Source: a virus. From it: DNA of 64,000 bases. Below, piece after piece: positions 2,767 to 54,351 of this stretch. The position numbers and the translations under genes were made by a program. The notes under the pieces are model-generated. The model was not told where the DNA came from, ran no database searches, and saw only the letters and a program-made list of their open reading frames with translations. Every line of letters begins with the position of its first letter. The stretch's first letter is position 1. The stretch is from the IMG/VR virus record IMGVR_UViG_3300020477_001012, positions 1-64,000 of that record; one strand, 5' to 3'.

Positions 2767-5127
2767 TTATAGTGGCATTCCGGTGCTGGTCGTTGTTCCC
2801 GGCTCCGATGTTGTGGTTGTGGAAGTTGTCGTGGTTGTACACGTCTCACCATTGTAAACAGTCCCATACGGCGACGAACCATCTGAACCACAGCACGAAT
2901 TAGGGTACCAGAATCCATCATCGCAGCACGATATAACTGCAAGGCAACCGTCTCCACCGCCACCGCCCCCTTCATCAATACAGGGTATAGTGCAAAATAT
3001 GGTATCTATCCCCTCCGTGGAGTACACCCCGCCAGCAGACGTACATGCTGTCTCGCCATCAGATCCTTCCTCTGGAGGGTCGCCACATTCACAATCGCCA
3101 GAACAATCATCCCCACCAGACGACCACGGACCACCATCACCAACAGTCTTGAACCAAATACAGTCTCCACAATCCGGGCTACCAGTGGTGGTAGTAGTGG
3201 TAGATCCCCCCGGGCCGCCAGTGGTGGTAGTAGTGGTAGATCCCCCCGGGCCGCCAGTGGTGGTAGTAGTGGTAGATCCCCCCGGGCCGCCAGTGGTGGT
3301 AGAGGGTGATGACGTAGTAGGCTCACTAGTAGTAGTAGTGGTGCTTGTTGTACTCTGAGTAGTAGGCCCACTAGTGGTGGTTGTTGTCGTTGTGGTCGTA
3401 GTAGTAGTTGTGGTCGTAGTTGTTGAAGTTGTGCCGTCTGTGCAGTCTGTGTTGCAATTACTTAAAGTTTTAGTGTCCCCATGTGTACACTGATGGCTCG
3501 CACTATCATCACCTTCGCTTGGACAACAGCATTGCTCTCCCCCTCCGGGTGGAGTACCACAATTATTAGCAGAAACTTCCCACTGTAGGACGTAATAATC
3601 ATAAAATGGTACCCACTCGCACGAATAGGTGCAAGTGCCCGGACACTCTGGCCCTTCGGTGGTGGTTGTAGTGGTCCCCTCACAATCTACCTCACTGCAA
3701 ATTTTGTCCTCAGTCCAAGAAACAACACAGTAATTACCCGCCGGGGTGGCATCCACAGAGAGAGCGTCACATTTCAATTTAGTTTGGTTGTCGGCGCAAT
3801 CAACGTCCTCTGGATCATCAACACACGGCCCCGAATAAAAACAGCAAGCCCCTCTAGGCCCCTCTGTGGTTGTTGTGGTCGTTGTGGTTGTACAAAGATT
3901 ACAGTTGCCGTCTATGTCATACCACCCAGTAGATGGCCATGTAGGATGTTTAATGGCAACAATCTCACTACAAGTGTATAGCCCGGAGTATTCACAGGTT
4001 GTACTTGAAAAGCAATAGTCTCCAGATTCATGACAACAGGTAATGCCCGGGCAGATGCAATTATGTACGGCTATACCCTCCACAAAATAAACGTGATTGC
4101 CATCCAACCCTAAATCATATAATTTCGTATTAGGATCGTCCTCACGAACCTCGATACTATTAATCTCCACTTCTCCAGCGGGAGAAAGGATCGTGTCACC
4201 AATAGAGAGATCCCCGTTGAACTCTATGTGGGGGTATAGCTCTTCGGATAATTCCGAGTTAACAGATTTAAACCCATCCTGAGTATATATGGGGTGGTCA
4301 TAACTAACAAAGAATTTAGAGTCATTTATAGAGACTAACTTCCTACCACCCAATACTGTTCTCTCTAAATCCAGAACTGTATTATTGGAGTCTAGCGATT
4401 TAACCTCATCACCGATCTCCACGTTCTCGATAGTCTTGTAAGACCCGTCGCTCATTAGCACTTGAGAGCCTGCAATAAAGCATGTCCAAAGTCCTCCGGG
4501 GCAACAAGGCTCTACGTCATTGCAAGAGCAGGGCACGCCAGAGGTGAATATTGGCAGGCCGTCATTAACACCACCAAGCGAATACTTAACTATGGTAACT
4601 GGACCGCGATTATTTAAAGCCAAACACTCATCCTTGCCATTCTGGGGGCCTGACGTACACAGCTTGCAATTGCAATTGTTACAGCCATCACCCGCACAGC
4701 AAGATGAATCCTGATCTTTGGCCCCACCGTCAGGACATGTGGAGGCTAGGTAAGAATTAAAGTGAAAAGAATGGTTTTGCCTGCCATTAATAACTGCGTC
4801 TTTTTCGCATGTTCCTGATGGAACCGCATTTTGGCACGCCCTGTTAATATCCCCAAACGGTGGACTGAAATAGAAACAGCACGATCCTAGCAAGTCACAA
4901 GCCGGTTCGGGCCAGTCTGTTCTCTCTGTGGGATAGTTGTTCTCAACCCTTAATTGAGCGCACGTCTTATTGGGATGGTGAATGCCCATCTCTTTTAACA
5001 TGCAGTCGCTGTACTCCACGTTATCATCACAGCGGGTGTATATCTCACCTTCAACCTTAGAGCAGCAAGCTCCGGGGTCGGGTGGTGGCGGCGGGGTGAC
5101 ACCTGAACATTGACAACAGAGAGTCAT
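2767..5127 (-). CDS. Cys-rich/Thr-rich (mucin-like) virion or adhesin protein with embedded Hint domain
   Basis: The product has 786 residues. Residues 1-215 are extremely rich in cysteine (many CC and CxC pairs). Residues 216-356 form a complete Hint domain (see its own entry). The remainder alternates Cys-rich modules with long Thr tracts and GGPGGSTTTTTT repeats. SD AAGGATG precedes the ATG. The Thr tracts resemble O-glycosylated linkers, and the adjacent glycosyltransferase gene at 1587-2732 could act on them (inference). No signal peptide is evident. Position among fibre genes suggests a virion surface protein or an adhesin that processes itself through the Hint domain. Confidence 0.8.
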   Translation of the reverse strand: MTLCCQCSGVTPPPPPDPGACCSKVEGEIYTRCDDNVEYSDCMLKEMGIHHPNKTCAQLRVENNYPTERTDWPEPACDLLGSCCFYFSPPFGDINRACQNAVPSGTCEKDAVINGRQNHSFHFNSYLASTCPDGGAKDQDSSCCAGDGCNNCNCKLCTSGPQNGKDECLALNNRGPVTIVKYSLGGVNDGLPIFTSGVPCSCNDVEPCCPGGLWTCFIAGSQVLMSDGSYKTIENVEIGDEVKSLDSNNTVLDLERTVLGGRKLVSINDSKFFVSYDHPIYTQDGFKSVNSELSEELYPHIEFNGDLSIGDTILSPAGEVEINSIEVREDDPNTKLYDLGLDGNHVYFVEGIAVHNCICPGITCCHESGDYCFSSTTCEYSGLYTCSEIVAIKHPTWPSTGWYDIDGNCNLCTTTTTTTTTEGPRGACCFYSGPCVDDPEDVDCADNQTKLKCDALSVDATPAGNYCVVSWTEDKICSEVDCEGTTTTTTEGPECPGTCTYSCEWVPFYDYYVLQWEVSANNCGTPPGGGEQCCCPSEGDDSASHQCTHGDTKTLSNCNTDCTDGTTSTTTTTTTTTTTTTTTTTSGPTTQSTTSTTTTTSEPTTSSPSTTTGGPGGSTTTTTTGGPGGSTTTTTTGGPGGSTTTTTTGSPDCGDCIWFKTVGDGGPWSSGGDDCSGDCECGDPPEEGSDGETACTSAGGVYSTEGIDTIFCTIPCIDEGGGGGGDGCLAVISCCDDGFWYPNSCCGSDGSSPYGTVYNGETCTTTTTSTTTTSEPGTTTSTGMPL
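3182..3302 (-). repeat. 36-bp in-frame tandem repeat (3.3 units)
   Basis: Three nearly identical 36-bp units followed by a partial unit encode GGPGGSTTTTTT repeats within the Thr-rich protein. Because the unit is a multiple of three, copy-number change would alter linker length without a frameshift. Confidence 0.95.
4060..4482 (-). other. Hint/intein-like domain inside the 2767-5127 protein
   Basis: It spans residues 216-356 of the host protein. It starts with Cys (CFIAGSQVLMSDG, block A), continues with ENVEIGDEV, has the block B-like YDHPIYTQDGF, and ends VAVHN followed directly by Cys (block G: HN|C). At about 141 residues it has no room for a homing endonuclease. The features match mini-inteins or bacterial intein-like (BIL) domains. 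The terminal HN plus +1 Cys would allow true protein splicing as well as cleavage. Confidence 0.85.
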
Positions 5128-5138
5128 TTATTACATCC

Positions 5139-7808
5139 TTATGAGCTGCCGGAACAACTGACGTAAATAGGTCGATTCTCCCCATTGATTCTGGCGGTGA
5201 TAACGAAGGCGGTTCCACCAACCGCACCCGGGCCGTGTATGTTAACTGTAACATCTCTGTTGGTTACCCAGATTTTTTCAGCAGAAGCAAAGCTGCCGTT
5301 TTTAATAGTCATTAATCCGCTGGTTGGAGAGGTGTAACTAGATGGGGCATAAATATATTCATCCATAAAGCCCTCATGGTGACCGAACCAAGCCTCTGAT
5401 GCCGACCCATCCACAATACTAACAAAGTCCCCAGAACCATTAATATGGGCCAATCGGGAGTCATCGTCATGCCAAGTTTGCACCATGTTGGTGTTGCTAT
5501 GGTTAACATTGGTGTTGTCTTTCCTGACTGAAAGCGGAGCGTCGGGAGTAAGAACAGCATCACCAATGGATACCATTTTCGCATCTGTTCGACCAGCTAT
5601 GGTATTTTGTATGTTCAATCTAGACGAAAGGTTTCCAGATGCATACATCAGCCGCTGATTGTCAAGAAGTCCTGTAACTATTTCTATGTTTTTAGAGCCA
5701 CCCTCAGCAGCAGAAATCTCACCCCGCAACGCATGCTCGCCAATACCAATACAGTTAGCGTTAGAACTATTCAATCCTGCATTAGATCCAATGAATATAG
5801 AATCTGAAGAAGAGTCTGCATTCTTGCCAGCACTGGTTCCTAAGAAGATGGAGTTGTCAATATTATCAGAATCATATCCAGCTTGATAACCAATAAATGT
5901 ACAGGCAGTATCTGTAGCCAGACTAACATTGGGTGTGGTAGCATAAGCTCCAGCCTGTGTGCCGAGCATGATACTATGCTTCCATCCCGTAGCTCCCGGG
6001 GCTACGTCGCAACCAATAAAGATGCTGCCGGAGTTGAGCGTAGTGCTAACATCAGCCTCAGCGTTACTGAACAGATAATTGCAATTATTAGCAACGCTCG
6101 CAAAACCACTACCCACATAGTTAGAAAGCGATTGAATACTCATTTTGGATATAACATCCGAAGAGCCTGACGGAACCTGTATGGCTATATAACTGTCAGC
6201 ACTTGTGACGGATGGTGTAGCAGAGCTGGCAAGTTGCAGATCAGTGAAATCTAAGGTGAAGATAGTTTTATCACCAACCACTGTGGAGGCAACTCCAGAA
6301 TCAGAGCCAAACTGTATAGCGCTGGCGCCTCCTAGAGATGTGCCGTCAGCAAATCTTATCTTTCCAGCAACCCGAAGATCTCCACTGATGGCAACAAAAG
6401 GCACTCTGGGGTTAGCGGAGGTAAAAATGGGCGAAACGTTGAGTGTTCCGCTGGGGTCAAAATCGACCAGAGTTTGACTCGCATCGAACTTATTACTAAA
6501 CCTTAAAGACATTACCCCTCTTGACTGTAGAGAGGATAGCGTGTCTTTTAGATTTATTACGCCAACTTCGCGGGAATACTCTACTTTGTTACTAAGGCTA
6601 AACTGATACTCGGAACTGTCTAAAGAAAATTCTGCTGGGCTGGAGGAAGTGGATTTTAATGCAAACCTTTTCCCATCTGTTCCTCCCAAGGAGCCTTCGA
6701 CAAGGGGGTCGGAGCCAAACCCTACCGCAAAAGTATAGTCCTCTGCGTCGTCGGAATTATACAGTCCGGTACCAATAAGTATAGAGTTGCTCTGCGACTC
6801 CGTGGATACCGTAGACAGATCGGCGGGGCTTGAGTTTCTGAAGCCAACAATGATGTTGCCATTGCCATAATTGTGCGTATAATTTAAAGTACCCAAGATG
6901 GTGTTATAATCATTCGAGCCAACTCCGCTACCACTTAAGTAGCCAAGAATAGCATTTCCTACGGCACTGTCGCTTAAAGAGTACCCGGCGGCATAGCCCA
7001 GTAAAGTGTTGTTAGATCGTGTTGAAAGTGCCACTCTTGCGGACGACTGAGGAGATAACCACCCACCGTATGTGTTGCCGTACTGATCCCCGTACAGCAA
7101 TCCGTTTTGGGAGTCCAGCTCTGGTCGTGGGGTGAGGTTAAACTCATTGCCACCACCATCCAAAAAGAATAATCCGTGAGTTTGGCTAGCCTCAACCTGT
7201 GGTTTAACGTATATTTTACCAAAGCTAGATGAAGTCGAAGGTTTTAATGTTTGAGCTTTAAGGGCAATTGTTCCGCTGGCAGAATCATTGTGAAAAACCG
7301 TAAGCGGAGAAACTGGGGTGAAAATTCTATAGTCATTGTCTTTTGTAGAACCTAACCCAAGGAACCCGTCTTCCGTAACAGACAAGAATCCAATCTCCCT
7401 GCCCACTTCTCCACTGGGTCTAATAAGGGAGAAGTCCACAACTGATTTATCTACAGCTCCCGTGTTGACATCTCCGTATGGATTAGAATACGAAGTGTCA
7501 TCATTTGCAGGATTGTATGAAATATGCAGGCCCGACGCTTTAGAGTTTCCATTGCCTAAAAGCTCTATATTGCTACGATTTAATCCTGAGCTGGCAAGTC
7601 TAATGTTAGATTCACCCGCAGACTGAACGTTAAGTATTGTCTCAGGTAAAATAGGCGGGTCGCTTGCTGAATGTGTTAAATTCGTAATGCCTACCAGACC
7701 GGATTGTGATACAGTCCCGCCGTGGCGCAAAATTGTTACGGCCTCGTGCTCCTTGGAGCCTCCGTTGTGAATGTGTACTGAAAACCTATCTTTTTTCCCA
7801 TGCGCCAT
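5139..7808 (-). CDS. Large fibre/tail structural protein with trimeric-adhesin-like repeats
   Basis: The 889-residue product is rich in Ser, Gly, Asn and Ala. Two blocks (around residues 275-350 and 585-700) carry repeats such as FIGYQAGYDS, FLGTSAGKNA and FIGSNAGLNS. These resemble the left-handed roll of YadA-like heads and chaperone-dependent fibres. SD GGAGGA lies ahead, and the ATG overlaps the stop of the upstream gene (TAATG), so the two are translationally coupled. It probably forms part of a trimeric fibre; the exact place in the virion is unknown. Confidence 0.7.
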   Translation of the reverse strand: MAHGKKDRFSVHIHNGGSKEHEAVTILRHGGTVSQSGLVGITNLTHSASDPPILPETILNVQSAGESNIRLASSGLNRSNIELLGNGNSKASGLHISYNPANDDTSYSNPYGDVNTGAVDKSVVDFSLIRPSGEVGREIGFLSVTEDGFLGLGSTKDNDYRIFTPVSPLTVFHNDSASGTIALKAQTLKPSTSSSFGKIYVKPQVEASQTHGLFFLDGGGNEFNLTPRPELDSQNGLLYGDQYGNTYGGWLSPQSSARVALSTRSNNTLLGYAAGYSLSDSAVGNAILGYLSGSGVGSNDYNTILGTLNYTHNYGNGNIIVGFRNSSPADLSTVSTESQSNSILIGTGLYNSDDAEDYTFAVGFGSDPLVEGSLGGTDGKRFALKSTSSSPAEFSLDSSEYQFSLSNKVEYSREVGVINLKDTLSSLQSRGVMSLRFSNKFDASQTLVDFDPSGTLNVSPIFTSANPRVPFVAISGDLRVAGKIRFADGTSLGGASAIQFGSDSGVASTVVGDKTIFTLDFTDLQLASSATPSVTSADSYIAIQVPSGSSDVISKMSIQSLSNYVGSGFASVANNCNYLFSNAEADVSTTLNSGSIFIGCDVAPGATGWKHSIMLGTQAGAYATTPNVSLATDTACTFIGYQAGYDSDNIDNSIFLGTSAGKNADSSSDSIFIGSNAGLNSSNANCIGIGEHALRGEISAAEGGSKNIEIVTGLLDNQRLMYASGNLSSRLNIQNTIAGRTDAKMVSIGDAVLTPDAPLSVRKDNTNVNHSNTNMVQTWHDDDSRLAHINGSGDFVSIVDGSASEAWFGHHEGFMDEYIYAPSSYTSPTSGLMTIKNGSFASAEKIWVTNRDVTVNIHGPGAVGGTAFVITARINGENRPIYVSCSGSS

Positions 7809-44086: not shown

Positions 44087-45355
44087 ATGATGAGGATAAA
44101 GGTTAAGCGTAATGCGAAGTTAATCGGATTAGATACACGAGAGATTGATGAAGACCACAAAAGGACGATCCAGTTGTGTAGACGTGTCTCAAAGTATATT
44201 AGAAAAGAAATAGTGGATGGGAATATTGTTGAGATCAATAAGCGGGTTATCTACAAAGATGGAACATCCTTAGACAATACCGCATTTAAAAACAAAGTCA
44301 GTCACCTGTTTGACGACGATGCTCATGCAGAGTCTCTTAGGAGAAATTCTGTAATCTATGTCATGGAGAGATATGCCGGATATATCAGTCGGAACGGACT
44401 GGATAGATTTCTAAAAATCAAATCACCCATCTCTATCAAGGATACCTCTTTTTATTTTAAAGACAACTTCAATAAGATAGATAAAGAGAATAAAATCCTG
44501 TACGTAAAAACAATGTTCACGGGGGACAGGGAATACAGGAAGGTTCCTTATAAGTATGTGCTTAAAGGAGATAAAATTTCAGAGGATAAGAAACATGGTG
44601 GCAATTTAACTTTTCCTCGCAAAAAGAACAAGGCAAAAACATATGTGATCGCTGTTGACTACGAGAGGGAACCTGCATACGAACCTGAAAAATTGATTGG
44701 GTTTGATCTTAATAAAGATAAGAAATCTTGGATAGTTCTTGACGATGGGCAAAGAATCACTCCAAATCAACAAATACAAGACTCCACAGAGAACATCCGT
44801 GTTTTAAATACAACTCTGGACAAGGATAAGAAGGCTCCTATTGATAAGAGAAGCCTTAGAAGCAAGGATAGGAGACCTATTAGGTTGAAGTGGAAGAAAG
44901 CTCATAGTAAACTAAAAGCTGAGATAAGCAAGGTGGCTGAGACTGTCGTGAATAAGGCTAGAGATGAGAAAGCACTGCTGTGTATTGACAGTGTTACAAC
45001 TGGGCAGAAAAATGGCACATTTGGTCAAGATCATTTAATCGAGACGCTTCAAGTAATGTGTGAGAACCAAGGTGTTCCATTCTATGTCGTACCATGCAAA
45101 AATACATCTCGTAGATGTTCATCTTGCGGGTATATCGCTAAGGGTAACAGGGTAAACACAGACGAATTCCATTGTGAAGATTGTGGTCATAAGTGTGACG
45201 CACAAAATAATGGTGCAAAAAATATTGTCTTTCAAGGTCAGAGAATGTATAATGCGGGTGTCCCCTATGGGAATTATAGAAGACGCGCAGTAGACACTCT
45301 GGTAAAAGAATACTCTCAACAAGAAAGTTCAGTTGATACCTCTGAGGCGAGTTGA
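44087..45355 (+). CDS. TnpB-like RuvC/zinc-finger protein
   Basis: The 422-residue product has the TnpB/Cas12 core: RuvC-I GFDLNKD (D207), RuvC-II region LLCIDSVTTG (D301, where TnpB usually has Glu), a zinc finger CSSCG...CEDCG (C344, C347, C363, C366), and RuvC-III CDAQNNGAKNI (D371). There is no TnpA and no transposon ends are visible, so it looks domesticated. The Glu-to-Asp change may reduce or alter cleavage. SD AAAGGGA. It sits between pseudoknot elements D and E, followed by tRNA-Leu and structured RNA copy 2. Confidence 0.85.
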   Translation: MMRIKVKRNAKLIGLDTREIDEDHKRTIQLCRRVSKYIRKEIVDGNIVEINKRVIYKDGTSLDNTAFKNKVSHLFDDDAHAESLRRNSVIYVMERYAGYISRNGLDRFLKIKSPISIKDTSFYFKDNFNKIDKENKILYVKTMFTGDREYRKVPYKYVLKGDKISEDKKHGGNLTFPRKKNKAKTYVIAVDYEREPAYEPEKLIGFDLNKDKKSWIVLDDGQRITPNQQIQDSTENIRVLNTTLDKDKKAPIDKRSLRSKDRRPIRLKWKKAHSKLKAEISKVAETVVNKARDEKALLCIDSVTTGQKNGTFGQDHLIETLQVMCENQGVPFYVVPCKNTSRRCSSCGYIAKGNRVNTDEFHCEDCGHKCDAQNNGAKNIVFQGQRMYNAGVPYGNYRRRAVDTLVKEYSQQESSVDTSEAS

Positions 45356-47422: not shown

Positions 47423-47561
47423 TCAAATTTTATGTGCTTTCTTTGCGGCGAGCAATTTATTCTTTTACCTACTAAATGATGACGTAATTAATTTGGTTAT
47501 CTCTGTTGCTATGGTCTTAACAGTGGCCATACTAGAACTTACAAGGCGCGATTATGAATAA
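47400..47561 (+). CDS. Small two-helix membrane protein
   Basis: A 53-residue frame (MTTDPRASQILCAFFAASNL ...) overlaps both neighbours, with two hydrophobic stretches and a basic end. Coupled start and stop support it; function is unknown. Confidence 0.5.
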   Translation: MTTDPRASQILCAFFAASNLFFYLLNDDVINLVISVAMVLTVAILELTRRDYE

Positions 47562-48567
47562 AGCACGAGTTGGAGTTGTGGGATATGGCACTATAGGAAA
47601 AAGAGTTGCCGATGCAGTCATGTTACAAAGCGACATGGAATTAATGGGGGTGACTGCTAATAGCTACAACTATAAGATTAAGGCGGCACACAAGAAGGGT
47701 ATCAGGGTATTCCCCATGAAACCCTACGGTGAGTCAGACCACCTTAGCTATGGTATAGCTAGTATAGCAGGAACTGCAAACGACTTAGTTAATCAGTGTG
47801 ATATTATAGTTGACTGCACCCCGAAAGGCGTGGGAGCAGAAAACCGAGAGTGGTATAAAAGACAAAAGGTTAAAGCTATATTTCAGGGAGGCGAAAAAGC
47901 TGACGTGGGAACTAGCTTTGTGTCTCAGTGTAACTATGGGAATGGCTGGGGTGCTGAATTCATTAGAGTGGTTAGTTGTAACACAACTGGATTATGCAGG
48001 ACGTTACAAGCAGTAGACTTTGAGTTCGGTATTAAACAGGCTCACGCAACCCTTATAAGGCGAGCCTCTGATCCTTGGGATATCTATCATGGCCCAGTCA
48101 ACGCCCTCGTTCCACATTTGGTAGTACCATCACACCACGGGCCAGACGTTCAAACCATTCTACCCCATGTTCAACTCTTTACAACTTCGGTATCGGTTCC
48201 CACAACCCTCATGCACATGCACAGCATATCCGTGGATCTAGACAGCCCGGCGACCAGTACTGACGAAGTGGCGGATATCTTTAAAGATACAGCAAGAGTG
48301 CGAATGGTATATAACTCTGACGGTATTAGGTCTACCGCTGAGATTTTGGAATATGCTAAAGACCTTGGAAGAAGCAGGGGGGATATGCCAGAAGTATGTG
48401 TTTGGAAAGAAACTATGGGTATCCAAAAAAACAAGCTGTTTTATTTGCAGGCTATACATCAGGAGAGCGACGTTGTACCAGAAAATATTGATGCAATCAG
48501 AGCTGCGTGCAGAATGTGCAGCTCTACAGAGAGTATGAAAAGGACCAATGAAAGTTTAAATATATAA
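47554..48567 (+). CDS. Archaeal-type (type II) glyceraldehyde-3-phosphate dehydrogenase
   Basis: The 337-residue protein resembles archaeal GAPDH along its length: VGVVGYGTIGKRVADAV (NAD(P) site), DIIVDCTPKGVG, KAIFQGGEKADV, VVSCNTTGLCRTL with catalytic Cys142, IRRASDPWD, VPSHHGPDVQT, and FYLQAIHQESDVVPENIDAI at the end. Length is normal for the type II enzyme, with no breaks. It would oxidise glyceraldehyde-3-phosphate with NAD(P). Finding this family in a phage is highly unusual; the reason may be NADPH supply or sugar-phosphate metabolism (inference). Confidence 0.93.
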   Translation: MNKARVGVVGYGTIGKRVADAVMLQSDMELMGVTANSYNYKIKAAHKKGIRVFPMKPYGESDHLSYGIASIAGTANDLVNQCDIIVDCTPKGVGAENREWYKRQKVKAIFQGGEKADVGTSFVSQCNYGNGWGAEFIRVVSCNTTGLCRTLQAVDFEFGIKQAHATLIRRASDPWDIYHGPVNALVPHLVVPSHHGPDVQTILPHVQLFTTSVSVPTTLMHMHSISVDLDSPATSTDEVADIFKDTARVRMVYNSDGIRSTAEILEYAKDLGRSRGDMPEVCVWKETMGIQKNKLFYLQAIHQESDVVPENIDAIRAACRMCSSTESMKRTNESLNI

Positions 48568-51073: not shown

Positions 51074-51688
51074 ATGCATAAATTCACACTTAGTACGTTG
51101 TTAGAAACAGTACCCGAAGAGCTAGTGAAGTCTTTTGACAACCTTCCAAGCACAGAGCACAAAGATGGGAAGTTTAGACTGAGGCGGTATTCTGTTTTTA
51201 CATGCCGAGGAGACCAGCTAGATACAACAGAGTTTAATCAATCGTCAGAGTATAACAAATATCAAGGAGATGTAGCCAGAACGTTTCAGCCCATCGAAAA
51301 AGAAATCGCCACACATGAAGCATTCCTTAGCTTACTCACTCAATTCCGAGAAATTGCAGAGTTAAACCATGAGGATATTGACGTACACCAAATGAGAATC
51401 ATTACTGATGGCTCAGATGCTTCCGAGATAAGCCCAGAAGGGGCGCATCAAGATGGGTACGACGTAATCGCCATTGTTGGTATTAATCGGAAAAACATTA
51501 CCGGAGGAAATTTATTACTGTACCATGAAAATGGAGGGAACGAGATTTTATCTTATGCCGTGCAGTCTGGAGAGGCAGTGGTATTAAATGACAGAGAGAT
51601 GTGGCATAATGGGCAGGCTATTAATGCCGTCAACCCTGATGAACCCGGATTTATGGACGCTTTTATTTTACTTTCAAATAGGGAATAG
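51074..51688 (+). CDS. 2-oxoglutarate/Fe(II) dioxygenase family protein
   Basis: The 204-residue product has the 2OG-Fe dioxygenase (PF10014-like) pattern: EGAHQDGYDVIAIVGINRKN (HxD), ITGGNLLLY, then GEAVVLNDREMWHNGQAI (distal His). Related enzymes hydroxylate amino acids. In phages they may modify proteins or nucleotides. SD AAGGTAAAACAC. Confidence 0.8.
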   Translation: MHKFTLSTLLETVPEELVKSFDNLPSTEHKDGKFRLRRYSVFTCRGDQLDTTEFNQSSEYNKYQGDVARTFQPIEKEIATHEAFLSLLTQFREIAELNHEDIDVHQMRIITDGSDASEISPEGAHQDGYDVIAIVGINRKNITGGNLLLYHENGGNEILSYAVQSGEAVVLNDREMWHNGQAINAVNPDEPGFMDAFILLSNRE

Positions 51689-51912: not shown

Positions 51913-52070
51913 TGAATATCATAGAACCATTTCCGCCCATGATCGACGCTTGTGATTGGTGCGGAGTCTTCAAATGTGTATCATATGTTGATGAACATTA
52001 CATTTGTTACGATTGTACAAGTAGCTTAGAGGATAACAATGAAACTCTATGCAATAATTTGGATAACTAA
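51912..52070 (+). CDS. Small zinc-finger protein
   Basis: A 52-residue frame (MNIIEPFPPMIDACDWCGVF ...) carries CDWC ... CYDC, a four-Cys zinc site. It overlaps both neighbours (TAATG start). A single-domain phage zinc finger of unknown target. Confidence 0.6.
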   Translation: MNIIEPFPPMIDACDWCGVFKCVSYVDEHYICYDCTSSLEDNNETLCNNLDN

Positions 52071-52455
52071 GTTTGGCAAACTTTATGCTATGGAGCCAGT
52101 AGCGATCTACAAGGATATGGAAACCGCCCTAGAGTACGTGCTGAAACTAGAGCAAGCATGGAATAAGCTAGGAAACGATAAATACGAAGAAGCAACATTT
52201 GATATTATTGACTTTCAAATGGACGAGGAACCTTATCTCTTGACTTACTTTACCAAGATGGAAGAAAAAATTAATGACACCAGAGACCACCACCTATCCA
52301 AACTAATGAAAGACGGAATGGTGGAGCAGCTCGTAGGAGATGATGGTTATTTTTATTACGAACTAACAGAGAAGGGCGAGAAATTAGCAAAGAAGAAAGC
52401 GTTATTTCCGCAGCATGTCAAAGATTGGAAAAGATTCTTTGGCAAGGGTAAATAA
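52039..52455 (+). CDS. Hypothetical protein with winged-helix-like C-terminus
   Basis: The 138-residue product has a beta-alpha N-terminus (MKLYAIIWITKFGKLYAMEP) and a C-terminal part (KLMKDGMVEQLVGDDGYFYYELTEKGEK, in parts) with the look of a winged helix (L.eKGe). Not recognised. tRNA-Arg follows 5 bp later. Confidence 0.6.
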   Translation: MKLYAIIWITKFGKLYAMEPVAIYKDMETALEYVLKLEQAWNKLGNDKYEEATFDIIDFQMDEEPYLLTYFTKMEEKINDTRDHHLSKLMKDGMVEQLVGDDGYFYYELTEKGEKLAKKKALFPQHVKDWKRFFGKGK

Positions 52456-52460
52456 TACTT

Positions 52461-52532
52461 GGCCCTGTAGTTAAACGGATATAACAAGGGTCTTCTAAAC
52501 CCTAATTCGGGGTTCGATTCCTCGCGGGGCTA
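52461..52532 (+). tRNA. tRNA-Arg (UCU)
   Basis: Acceptor GGCCCTG/CGGGGCT, anticodon stem AGGGT/ACCCT with loop CTTCTAA (TCT), T arm CGGGG-TTCGATT-CCTCG, discriminator A. No CCA encoded. It lies between two genes with almost no spacers. Confidence 0.93.
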
Positions 52533-52535
52533 CTA

Positions 52536-52736
52536 ATGGTAGATAAAGTCAAATGTCCTTGTGGCAAAGAAATCTCGTACAAGGATAGTTATAGATGTAG
52601 AATATGTTTTACTCATTATTGCTCCGAGTGTTCGTTAGATCATTTCGGTCTGTATGAAAAAAATGGACACGTCCAATATAAGAATATTTTTAAAACTATG
52701 TACTGGCTTTTTAGAAAAAGGATTTTTGGAAGATGA
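52536..52736 (+). CDS. Zinc-finger (RING/ribbon-like) protein
   Basis: The 66-residue product has seven Cys in CPCGKEISYKDSYRCRICF and HYCSECSLDH. The ATG is 3 nt after the tRNA and no SD precedes it except the tRNA acceptor arm, so translation control is odd. Overlaps the next gene. Confidence 0.65.
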   Translation: MVDKVKCPCGKEISYKDSYRCRICFTHYCSECSLDHFGLYEKNGHVQYKNIFKTMYWLFRKRIFGR

Positions 52737-53203
52737 GAATAGGAATTGTATCTGGTTATTTTAACCCATTACACACAGGACACCTAGACTACATCGAGGA
52801 AGCTAAGGCACATTGTGAATATTTATATGTTATTGTAAACAGTGACCTCCAAGTCAAACTGAAGCAGAGCAGGGAGTTCTTAGATGAGGCGTCTCGCGTT
52901 AGAATTATTGACGCATTACGCGATGTCTACAAGGCTGTCCTATCCGTAGACAAAGATGGGACGGTTGTTAAAACGATTAAGAGTATCTACGAAGAGAATT
53001 ACAACGACCCATTTGTTTCCGGTTTCTGTTTTATGAATGGAGGAGACAGAAAGGCTGGCAATACGCCGGAGTCAGATTTTTGCGAGAAGAACCAAATCAG
53101 ACTAATATATAATGTAGGGGGAGTTAAGACACAGTCGTCAAGTTCCCTTTTAGAGAAGACGAGGATTAATGAGGGGATTAATTGGATAGCGCCTGCGAGT
53201 TAG
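52733..53203 (+). CDS. Cytidylyltransferase-like nucleotidyltransferase
   Basis: The 156-residue product has the HxGH motif in GYFNPLHTGHLDYIEEAKAH (HTGH ~ 15-18), VIVNSDLQVKLKQS, and a late VGGVKTQSSSSLL (similar to the ISSS-type motif). Family: RfaE/TagD-like. It activates a sugar- or polyol-phosphate. Fits the sugar genes in this window. Confidence 0.85.
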   Translation: MRIGIVSGYFNPLHTGHLDYIEEAKAHCEYLYVIVNSDLQVKLKQSREFLDEASRVRIIDALRDVYKAVLSVDKDGTVVKTIKSIYEENYNDPFVSGFCFMNGGDRKAGNTPESDFCEKNQIRLIYNVGGVKTQSSSSLLEKTRINEGINWIAPAS

Positions 53204-53206
53204 ACA

Positions 53207-53284
53207 TGGCAGTTTGTCTGCCTAAACATGTAGATGTTGTTGTGGATACATCACTGGACGGGGGTTCGATTCCCCCCACCTCCA
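53207..53284 (+). ncRNA. ssrA: Permuted tmRNA, acceptor piece (3' half)
   Basis: CTAAACATGTAGATG matches the conserved 3' part of tmRNA; GACGGGGGTTCGATTCCCCC is its T arm, and CACCTCCA the acceptor strand, ending at A53284 (no CCA). CACCTCC pairs with GGGGGTG at 53412-53418 downstream. A GGCAG/CTGCC hairpin opens the piece. ACATGTA and GTTGT can pair with TGCATGT and ACAAC in the coding piece (helix P2). Confidence 0.9.
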
Positions 53285-53286
53285 CT

Positions 53287-53344
53287 CTGTGTCAAGAAAG
53301 TTGGGTCAGGGTTCCCAGACGAGAACACAGGCGTCTCAAAACCC
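53287..53344 (+). ncRNA. Pseudoknot element, copy F
   Basis: P1 CTGTG/CACAG, P2 TGGG/CCCA, pseudoknot GGGTT (53309-53313) with AACCC (53340-53344). It starts 2 nt after the mature 3' end of the acceptor piece. Confidence 0.85.
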
Positions 53345-53350
53345 ATTACT

Positions 53351-53407
53351 TCGCCCGATAAAGTTGGGTCAGGGTTCCCAAACGAGGGTGATGCCGTGAC
53401 AAAACCC
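53351..53407 (+). ncRNA. Pseudoknot element, copy G
   Basis: P1 TCGCCC/GGGTGA, P2 TGGG/CCCA, pseudoknot GGGTT with AACCC (53403-53407). It ends 4 nt before G1 of the tmRNA coding piece. Confidence 0.85.
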
Positions 53408-53411
53408 AAAT

Positions 53412-53576
53412 GGGGGTGAACGGATTCGACAGGTTGTAAGAAGTGACAACTGCATGTGGTAGTTGGTCTATGGCTACCTAAAAATAGACCGAACAATAAG
53501 TGCAAAACCTAGTTTTGCTTTAGCCGCTTAATCGCGTCTACGGGGGGTTGCCCGCCCTTGTTACCCAAACGGGCTT
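53412..53576 (+). ncRNA. ssrA: Permuted tmRNA, coding piece (5' half)
   Basis: The start GGGGGTGAACGGATTCGACA is the hallmark tmRNA 5' end. PK1 follows (GGTAG/CTACC and GGTCTAT/ATAGACC). The tag frame at 53502-53531 encodes AKPSFALAA then TAA; ALAA is the typical degradation signal. A second pseudoknot (GGGT/ACCC, GCCCG/CGGGC) closes the piece. Ribosome rescue by this RNA would work in the infected cell with host SmpB. Confidence 0.93.
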
Positions 53577-53604
53577 TTAATTTAACTTAACACATGAGAA
53601 TGGA

Positions 53605-53805
53605 ATGAAATTCACGCAGCAGAGAATCAACAGTATTAACTATGGGATCAGGAGGCGGCAGCGAGGGTTGGCAGTATGGCACCGAGGGGGAAACAAACTC
53701 ACCCTAGCACAATATCACGCAATCAAGGAAATCAATGCACTCAAGGATGAATTGGAGGAACTGACTGGGTCGAGGGTTGTAACAGACCCGAAGTGGCCTA
53801 TTTAA
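53605..53805 (+). CDS. Small basic protein
   Basis: The 66-residue product (MKFTQQRINSINYGIRRRQR ...) has an Arg-rich N-terminus and a helical C-terminus. It follows the tmRNA piece by 28 bp. RNA binding is plausible from charge alone; not recognised. Confidence 0.6.
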   Translation: MKFTQQRINSINYGIRRRQRGLAVWHRGGNKLTLAQYHAIKEINALKDELEELTGSRVVTDPKWPI

Positions 53806-53817
53806 AGGATCATGAAG

Positions 53818-54351
53818 ATGTACCAGCTAATCTATCAGCTTCAATCAAAACCTTCCCATTGGGATAACATGTTTTTGTTGGACGCAACATTTTGGGCCAC
53901 AAGAAGCCATGACACAGAAACTCAATGCGGCTGTGTTATAGTAAAAAATAAAACACCTCTTTCCGAGGGGTACAATGGGTTTGTTAGAGATATTGATGAC
54001 AATGCGTTACCACGAGTAAGACCCGCTAAGTATCCCTTTATGATCCATGCAGAAGCCAATGCAATCTACAATTGCGCAAGACAAGGCAAATCCACTTTAG
54101 GTGCAACAGCATATATTACAGCCTTGCCATGTTGCAACTGCTTACAGATGCTTTACCAATGTGGCGTGAGTAGTATTATTTTCTCCGATGTCTCTAACCC
54201 AAAGATGAGCACATGGAGGGATGACTACGAACAAATCATGGACCTTATCAAAGACAAGATCAACTTGAGATACATTCCGAAAGGAGATCTCGACCCAACC
54301 CCATTATTCAAGGCGTTTGATGAGGTTAGGAAAAAACCGAAAAATGAATGA
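53818..54351 (+). CDS. dCMP deaminase
   Basis: The ~177-residue zinc deaminase has HAEANAI (H78, catalytic E80) and PCCNC (C105, C108). It makes dUMP from dCMP, feeding ThyX. The start at 53818 gives 8 nt to AAAGGA; an ATG at 53812 is too close to it. Confidence 0.92.
   Translation: MYQLIYQLQSKPSHWDNMFLLDATFWATRSHDTETQCGCVIVKNKTPLSEGYNGFVRDIDDNALPRVRPAKYPFMIHAEANAIYNCARQGKSTLGATAYITALPCCNCLQMLYQCGVSSIIFSDVSNPKMSTWRDDYEQIMDLIKDKINLRYIPKGDLDPTPLFKAFDEVRKKPKNE

Follow-up and report, generated by a model that had tools for sequence, protein, structure and literature searches.

Organization of the locus

The window, a stretch of 64,000 nucleotides, is part of a 173,842-base IMG/VR record (IMGVR_UViG_3300020477_001012) that carries genes for terminase, portal, RIIA, ThyX, and dCMP deaminase as well as tRNAs. 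The terminase, portal, and RIIA genes bear out the phage origin proposed in a first-pass annotation made from the letters alone. At the locus studied here, the sequence specifies a tmRNA, an RNA that releases stalled ribosomes and attaches a tag to the incomplete proteins made on them. Its parts stand in permuted order: the 3' (acceptor) piece (about 53208-53284) comes first and is followed by an intervening segment (IVS) of 127 nt and by the coding piece (53412 to about 53578). The features of the locus and its surroundings are as follows.

52039-52455, plus strand: 138-amino acid ORF of a family of unknown function, conserved upstream neighbor (tblastn; no Pfam match)
52461-52533, plus strand: tRNA-Arg (TCT) (ARAGORN, Rfam)
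52733-53203, plus strand: cytidylyltransferase-like protein (Pfam PF01467, E = 1e-12), stop codon abutting the tmRNA 3' piece
53208-53222, plus strand: border hairpin GGCAG-UUUGU-CUGCC on the 5' side of the acceptor piece
53226-53276, plus strand: 3' (acceptor) piece with the P2 strands, then the T arm GGGGG-UUCGAUU-CCCCC (53260-53276)
53277-53284, plus strand: 3' acceptor strand CACCUCC (53277-53283) and discriminator A (53284)
53285-53411, plus strand: IVS of 127 nt, which processing of the precursor should remove
53297-53345, plus strand: IVS repeat unit, copy 1, 63-nt spacing
53360-53408, plus strand: IVS repeat unit, copy 2, 80% identical
53412-53418, plus strand: 5' acceptor strand GGGGGUG, with which the coding piece begins
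53450-53457, plus strand: P2 strand CUGCAUGU, partner of ACAUGUAG at 53226-53233 in the other piece
53458-53490, plus strand: pseudoknot PK1, stem a GGUAG/CUACC and stem b GGUCUA/UAGACC, perfect
53502-53531, plus strand: tag frame AKPSFALAA-stop, resume codon GCA (ARAGORN; similar tags in relatives)
53550-53578, plus strand: terminal hairpin GCCCG...CGGGC (53550-53574), loop CCUUGUUACCCAAA, then UUUU
53812-54351, plus strand: dCMP deaminase (Pfam PF00383), conserved downstream neighbor

The acceptor strands at 53412-53418 and 53277-53283 (GGGGGUG/CACCUCC) form seven of seven pairs, in which G3:U70 is the only wobble, and CCA is not encoded after the discriminator A at 53284. The hairpin with loop CCUUGUUACCCAAA aligns to the terminal hairpin of beta_tmRNA and is kept in relatives. 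Together with the UUUU it is likely the 3' end of the coding piece (~53578), near position 53576 given in the first-pass annotation.

Identification as a permuted tmRNA

ARAGORN called one permuted tmRNA (tmRNA*) with the tag AKPSFALAA* at 53193-53622. In an Rfam scan of the whole window, 53226-53531 (+) matched RF04321 (tmRNA_permuted) with 91 bits (E = 3.3e-16) against a gathering score of 47. The model was covered completely (positions 1-213) by one alignment spanning both pieces in permuted order. Neither ARAGORN nor Rfam found a standard one-piece tmRNA at this locus. Thus, the reading first put forward for this DNA is upheld in its structural details: the 3' half ending at 53284 ahead of a 5' half starting at 53412 (ARAGORN and RF04321 agree), the acceptor pairing of 7/7 with one G-U, the match of the P2 strands across the pieces (reinforced by covariation in relatives), a PK1 with both stems fully paired, and the tag, for which ARAGORN chose the same frame. 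Chance or misassembly was ruled out because independent contigs show the same arrangement.

The best-scoring model of the clan, for the window and for most relatives scanned, was beta_tmRNA (RF01850), which at 70.1 bits stayed below its gathering score of 84 in the window. The alpha_tmRNA model (RF01849) likewise remained below threshold in the window (46.1 bits versus 50); the relative L226 passed it with 60.9 bits. The threshold of cyano_tmRNA (RF01851) was not reached, and the scan at gathering thresholds listed no clan member at the locus. As the tmRNA of the window falls below the alpha and beta subtype cut-offs, it was not assigned to a bacterial lineage.

Genome setting and host

Homologs of the 138-amino acid ORF (35-43% identity in tblastn) lie upstream of the tmRNA in L133, L134, L136, L137, L138, L223, L236, L240, and other relatives, and a dCMP deaminase of 54-65% identity lies downstream; most relatives have their tmRNA between these two genes. 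SmpB (PF01668) was found neither in the 173,842-base record nor in 20 records of relatives; these records may be incomplete. Host SmpB is therefore presumed, and so, as judged from the records searched, the function of the tmRNA depends on the host. A promoter scan gave no match just upstream, and its matches were no commoner than in shuffles; read-through out of the upstream genes could supply expression.

The terminase has hundreds of relatives in IMG/VR, the best 80 at 75-89% identity. No close isolate was found with the terminase (best match 25% identity) or with the tmRNA. A scan of bacterial genomes with the terminase was rejected as a route to the host: it yielded one contig each from a SAR202 MAG and a Flavobacteriales MAG and nothing else, and both may be mis-binned phage. 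The SAR202 MAG and IMG/VR record G030 share the same tmRNA sequence across the stretch compared.

Relatives of the tmRNA in uncultivated phages

Seventeen distinct relatives from uncultivated IMG/VR phages were assembled from loci of dCMP deaminase relatives, from a terminase relative, and with a pattern for the acceptor piece, giving 18 sequences with the window. Closest to the window are L226 and its near-copies, which carry the same tag and are 77% identical to it across the two pieces. The tags of the window and its relatives comprise AKPSFALAA, AEPCFALAA, AEPCLALAA, ADESLALAA, ANESLALAA, VEKNFALAA, VEENFALAA, and GVENYAMAA; most keep a length of nine residues and end in ALAA or AMAA.

Several peculiarities of single relatives were recorded as well. 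The T loops GGCAGUA and GGCAGUU replace the usual UUCGAUU in L136 (5619-5701) and L138 (4292-4376), respectively, in tmRNAs that are otherwise intact and permuted. In L133 (3735-3995), the coding piece contains an additional long hairpin of ~20 bp close to PK1. A manA RNA motif (RF01745; 59.5 bits, above the gathering score) lies downstream of the tmRNA in L137 (3154-3331, +), and L133 holds a weaker copy at 5498-5674.

Covariation and conservation

The two pieces of all 18 sequences were concatenated without the IVS and aligned. RNAalifold, which had no knowledge of the family, joined the two pieces through pairing of their acceptor strands and of their P2 strands. Paired cells amounted to 96.0% versus 85.8% in shuffles, pairs changed on both sides to 20 versus 10.2, and doubly changed cells to 71 versus 20.9. 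The covariation score was 0.352, compared with 0.168 in shuffles and at most 0.107 for slid structures, and none of 500 shuffles reached any of the observed covariation measures. These counts use the RNAalifold structure derived from the same alignment of related sequences, and the controls thus lean somewhat in its favor.

The changes in P2 include pairs 25-135 (CG to AU), 26-134 (AU to UA), and 49-114 (CG to UA), among others. In L133 and L138, the P2 strands are swapped for GAUUGUAG/CUGCAAUC. The acceptor of L133 is rewritten to GGGCCAU/AUGGUCC with retention of 7/7 pairing and of G3:U70. Such single rewritten cases stand apart from the bias of the controls and are clear evidence regardless of it. 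PK1 stem b was checked sequence by sequence, and in several relatives different sequences redraw the same stem. G3:U70 and A73, which confer alanine identity, are invariant (18/18). The border hairpin occurs in nearly all of the 18 with varying sequence (mean -5.8 kcal/mol versus -2.4 for shuffles). Taken at the level of sequence, these data are strong evidence that selection acts on a working tmRNA, and the gene looks like one that is maintained and functional.

The intervening segment

The IVS measures mostly 12-20 nt in the relatives, with extremes of 5 nt in L136 and 588 nt in L138. ARAGORN called 97 permuted tmRNAs in phage loci, some of which overlap; the spacers range from 4 to 237 nt, and the length found in the window is therefore unexceptional. 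The IVS of the window consists mainly of two units at a spacing of 63 nt with 49-nt cores that are 80% identical. No further copy occurs in the record and the exact core is absent from IMG/VR contigs; a dispersed element was accordingly rejected. A riboswitch or other known RNA was rejected too, as no Rfam match appeared at E values up to 1. L226 has a different insert of 123 nt, unrelated to that of the window, whose ends are complementary (folding z -3.8).

In the second repeat of the window, CCCAAACGAGGGTGA (53377-53391) is 87% identical to CCCAAATGGGGGTGA at the junction of IVS and coding piece (53405-53419). Both repeats may have arisen by partial duplication of the tmRNA start followed by decay.

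Variation in gene order

In L138 (IMGVR_UViG_3300007960_004090), the IVS contains an endonuclease-like ORF of 178 amino acids (4441-4977, +), whose TAG stop codon extends into the beginning of the coding piece. It matches phrog_3322 (E = 7e-23), phrog_1035 (endonuclease VII), and HNH families and has no Pfam match. L230 (IMGVR_UViG_3300009481_003440) has a one-piece tmRNA (4786-5123, -; RF00023, 114 bits) that is clearly similar to the permuted family and has a family-like tag, AEPSLALAA. In an unrooted tree of 18 tmRNAs, L230 falls among permuted members with a support of about 0.83-0.85. As the tree is unrooted, a reversal in L230 is not proven. We tentatively consider that gene order and IVS are evolutionarily fluid in this lineage, with the IVS as an insertion site (63-nt units, folded inserts, and the endonuclease-like gene of L138) and L230 as a possible reversal of the permutation inside phages; the odds of this are below even.

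Proposed function

In our view, the locus holds a real permuted tmRNA (ssrA) gene that a tailed phage maintains and that would act via host processing, charging, and tagging, with a probability of about 0.88. The sequence, structure, conservation, and synteny described above are the basis on which transcription, processing, charging, tagging, and benefit are predicted in what follows. A single transcript would run from the acceptor piece through the IVS into the coding piece. If it is processed like the two-piece tmRNA of bacteria (PMC11915505, PMC9004378), host RNase P would cut at 53412, 3' trimming and CCA addition would follow after 53284, and the IVS would be removed, leaving two RNAs joined through the acceptor and P2 helices. 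Charging with alanine by AlaRS is expected because G3:U70 and A73 are present. With host SmpB and EF-Tu, the tmRNA would then enter stalled ribosomes and append AKPSFALAA. The tagged product would go to ClpXP-type proteases, an expectation founded on the ALAA end of the tag. As the tag has no AND-type start, adaptor-dependent recognition may differ. The putative benefit is that ribosomes are kept free while host and phage mRNAs break, independently of the host tmRNA supply. Ribosome rescue and tagging under phage control is thus a plausible role.

Instead of tagging for the benefit of the phage, the tmRNA might act as a decoy that competes with or inhibits trans-translation of the host. Such an effect is on record for the tag-less tmRNA of mycobacteriophage DS6A, which inhibits the endogenous tmRNA when expressed in Escherichia coli (PMC11915505), and with a tag starting with A[KE]P rather than AND, recognition by an SspB-type adaptor may be lost. 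DS6A, however, has no tag frame, whereas the gene of the window has an intact frame, a resume region, and an ALAA end, all needless for a decoy. We consider this explanation improbable.

A regulatory role for the IVS would be compatible with a working tmRNA. The two 63-nt units, with their near-identical 49-nt cores found nowhere else in the record, might form an RNA element controlling maturation or expression, and the glutamine riboswitch of the Melnitz tmRNA provides a precedent (PMC9004378). However, the IVS as a whole folds no better than shuffles (z -0.74) and a single unit only weakly better (z about -1.6), Rfam offers no match, the exact core does not recur among IMG/VR contigs, and the nearest relatives, which share the tag, carry an unrelated IVS. 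There is accordingly little likelihood of such a layer.

That the locus is a decaying, nonfunctional remnant of a host tmRNA, left by imprecise-excision capture or as an attachment-site copy, would fit with ssrA being often targeted by integrating phages (discussed in PMC9004378) and with an IVS exceeding the 12-20 nt of most relatives, but is very improbable because of the covariation, with compensatory changes in both pieces, and is further opposed by the invariant G3:U70, tags recognizable across the family, stable synteny with the dCMP deaminase, and the completeness of both pieces, where an attachment remnant would be a fragment.

Relation to known permuted tmRNAs

The first-pass annotation was mistaken in supposing that no permuted phage tmRNA had been described: Buchholz et al. 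2022 (PMC9004378) reported one in phage Melnitz together with a survey, in which two-piece forms made up 53 of 133 unique phage tmRNA structures out of 402 phage genomes, 50 of the 53 being marine or aquatic. A tmRNA database of 2025 holds 79 phage sequences (PMC11915505). Furthermore, ARAGORN calls as permuted the GenBank-annotated tmRNA of Stenotrophomonas phage Marzo and the tmRNAs of cyanophages S-CAM1 and S-SSM7. The permuted phage tmRNA is therefore a known kind, to which the window adds a phage family without an isolate.

The tmRNA of the window resembles that of Melnitz, an OM43 phage, as a permuted gene of a large marine tailed phage for which a role in host takeover has been proposed. 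The Melnitz tmRNA groups with alphaproteobacteria/SAR11 and is accompanied by a glutamine riboswitch, whereas in the window the best subtype model is beta_tmRNA (below its cut-off), no Rfam riboswitch is present, and the tmRNA adjoins a dCMP deaminase. With the betaproteobacterial permuted tmRNA (RF01850), its best clan model, it shares a terminal hairpin with a CCUUGUUACC loop, but it scores under the gathering score of 84 and differs in its tag and P2 sequences. Marzo, S-CAM1, and S-SSM7 also have a permuted tmRNA in a phage; all three are isolates, and their tags and neighbors are different. S-CAM1 and S-SSM7 resemble the window in nucleotide sequence only within the T arm, and a comparison with the tmRNA of family member L134 found no nucleotide similarity in isolates. 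The two-piece tmRNA of Caulobacter (Keiler et al. 2000, cited in PMC9004378) is alike in gene order, processing logic, and the small/hydrophobic end of the tag; it is a cellular gene with a cognate SmpB, whereas the gene of the window is phage-borne.

Hence, a conserved family of uncultivated phages joins the known phage two-piece tmRNAs. Its covariation points to selection that keeps the RNA working, which lends support to the view that carrying a means of ribosome rescue pays off for some large phages. The other members provide natural material on spacer insertions in a permuted RNA gene and on a possible return to the one-piece order.

Other genes in the window

Three further genes of the window, all on the plus strand, were noted. 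At 44087-45355 lies the gene of a 422-amino acid protein whose nuclease domain is Cas12f1-like/TnpB (PF07282); its PHROG match is a transposase. The product of 47554-48567 (337 amino acids) matches the C-terminal domain of glyceraldehyde-3-phosphate dehydrogenase (PF02800, E = 3.5e-26), which is unusual for a phage. Positions 51074-51688 encode a 2OG-Fe dioxygenase of 204 amino acids (PF10014, E = 2e-48).
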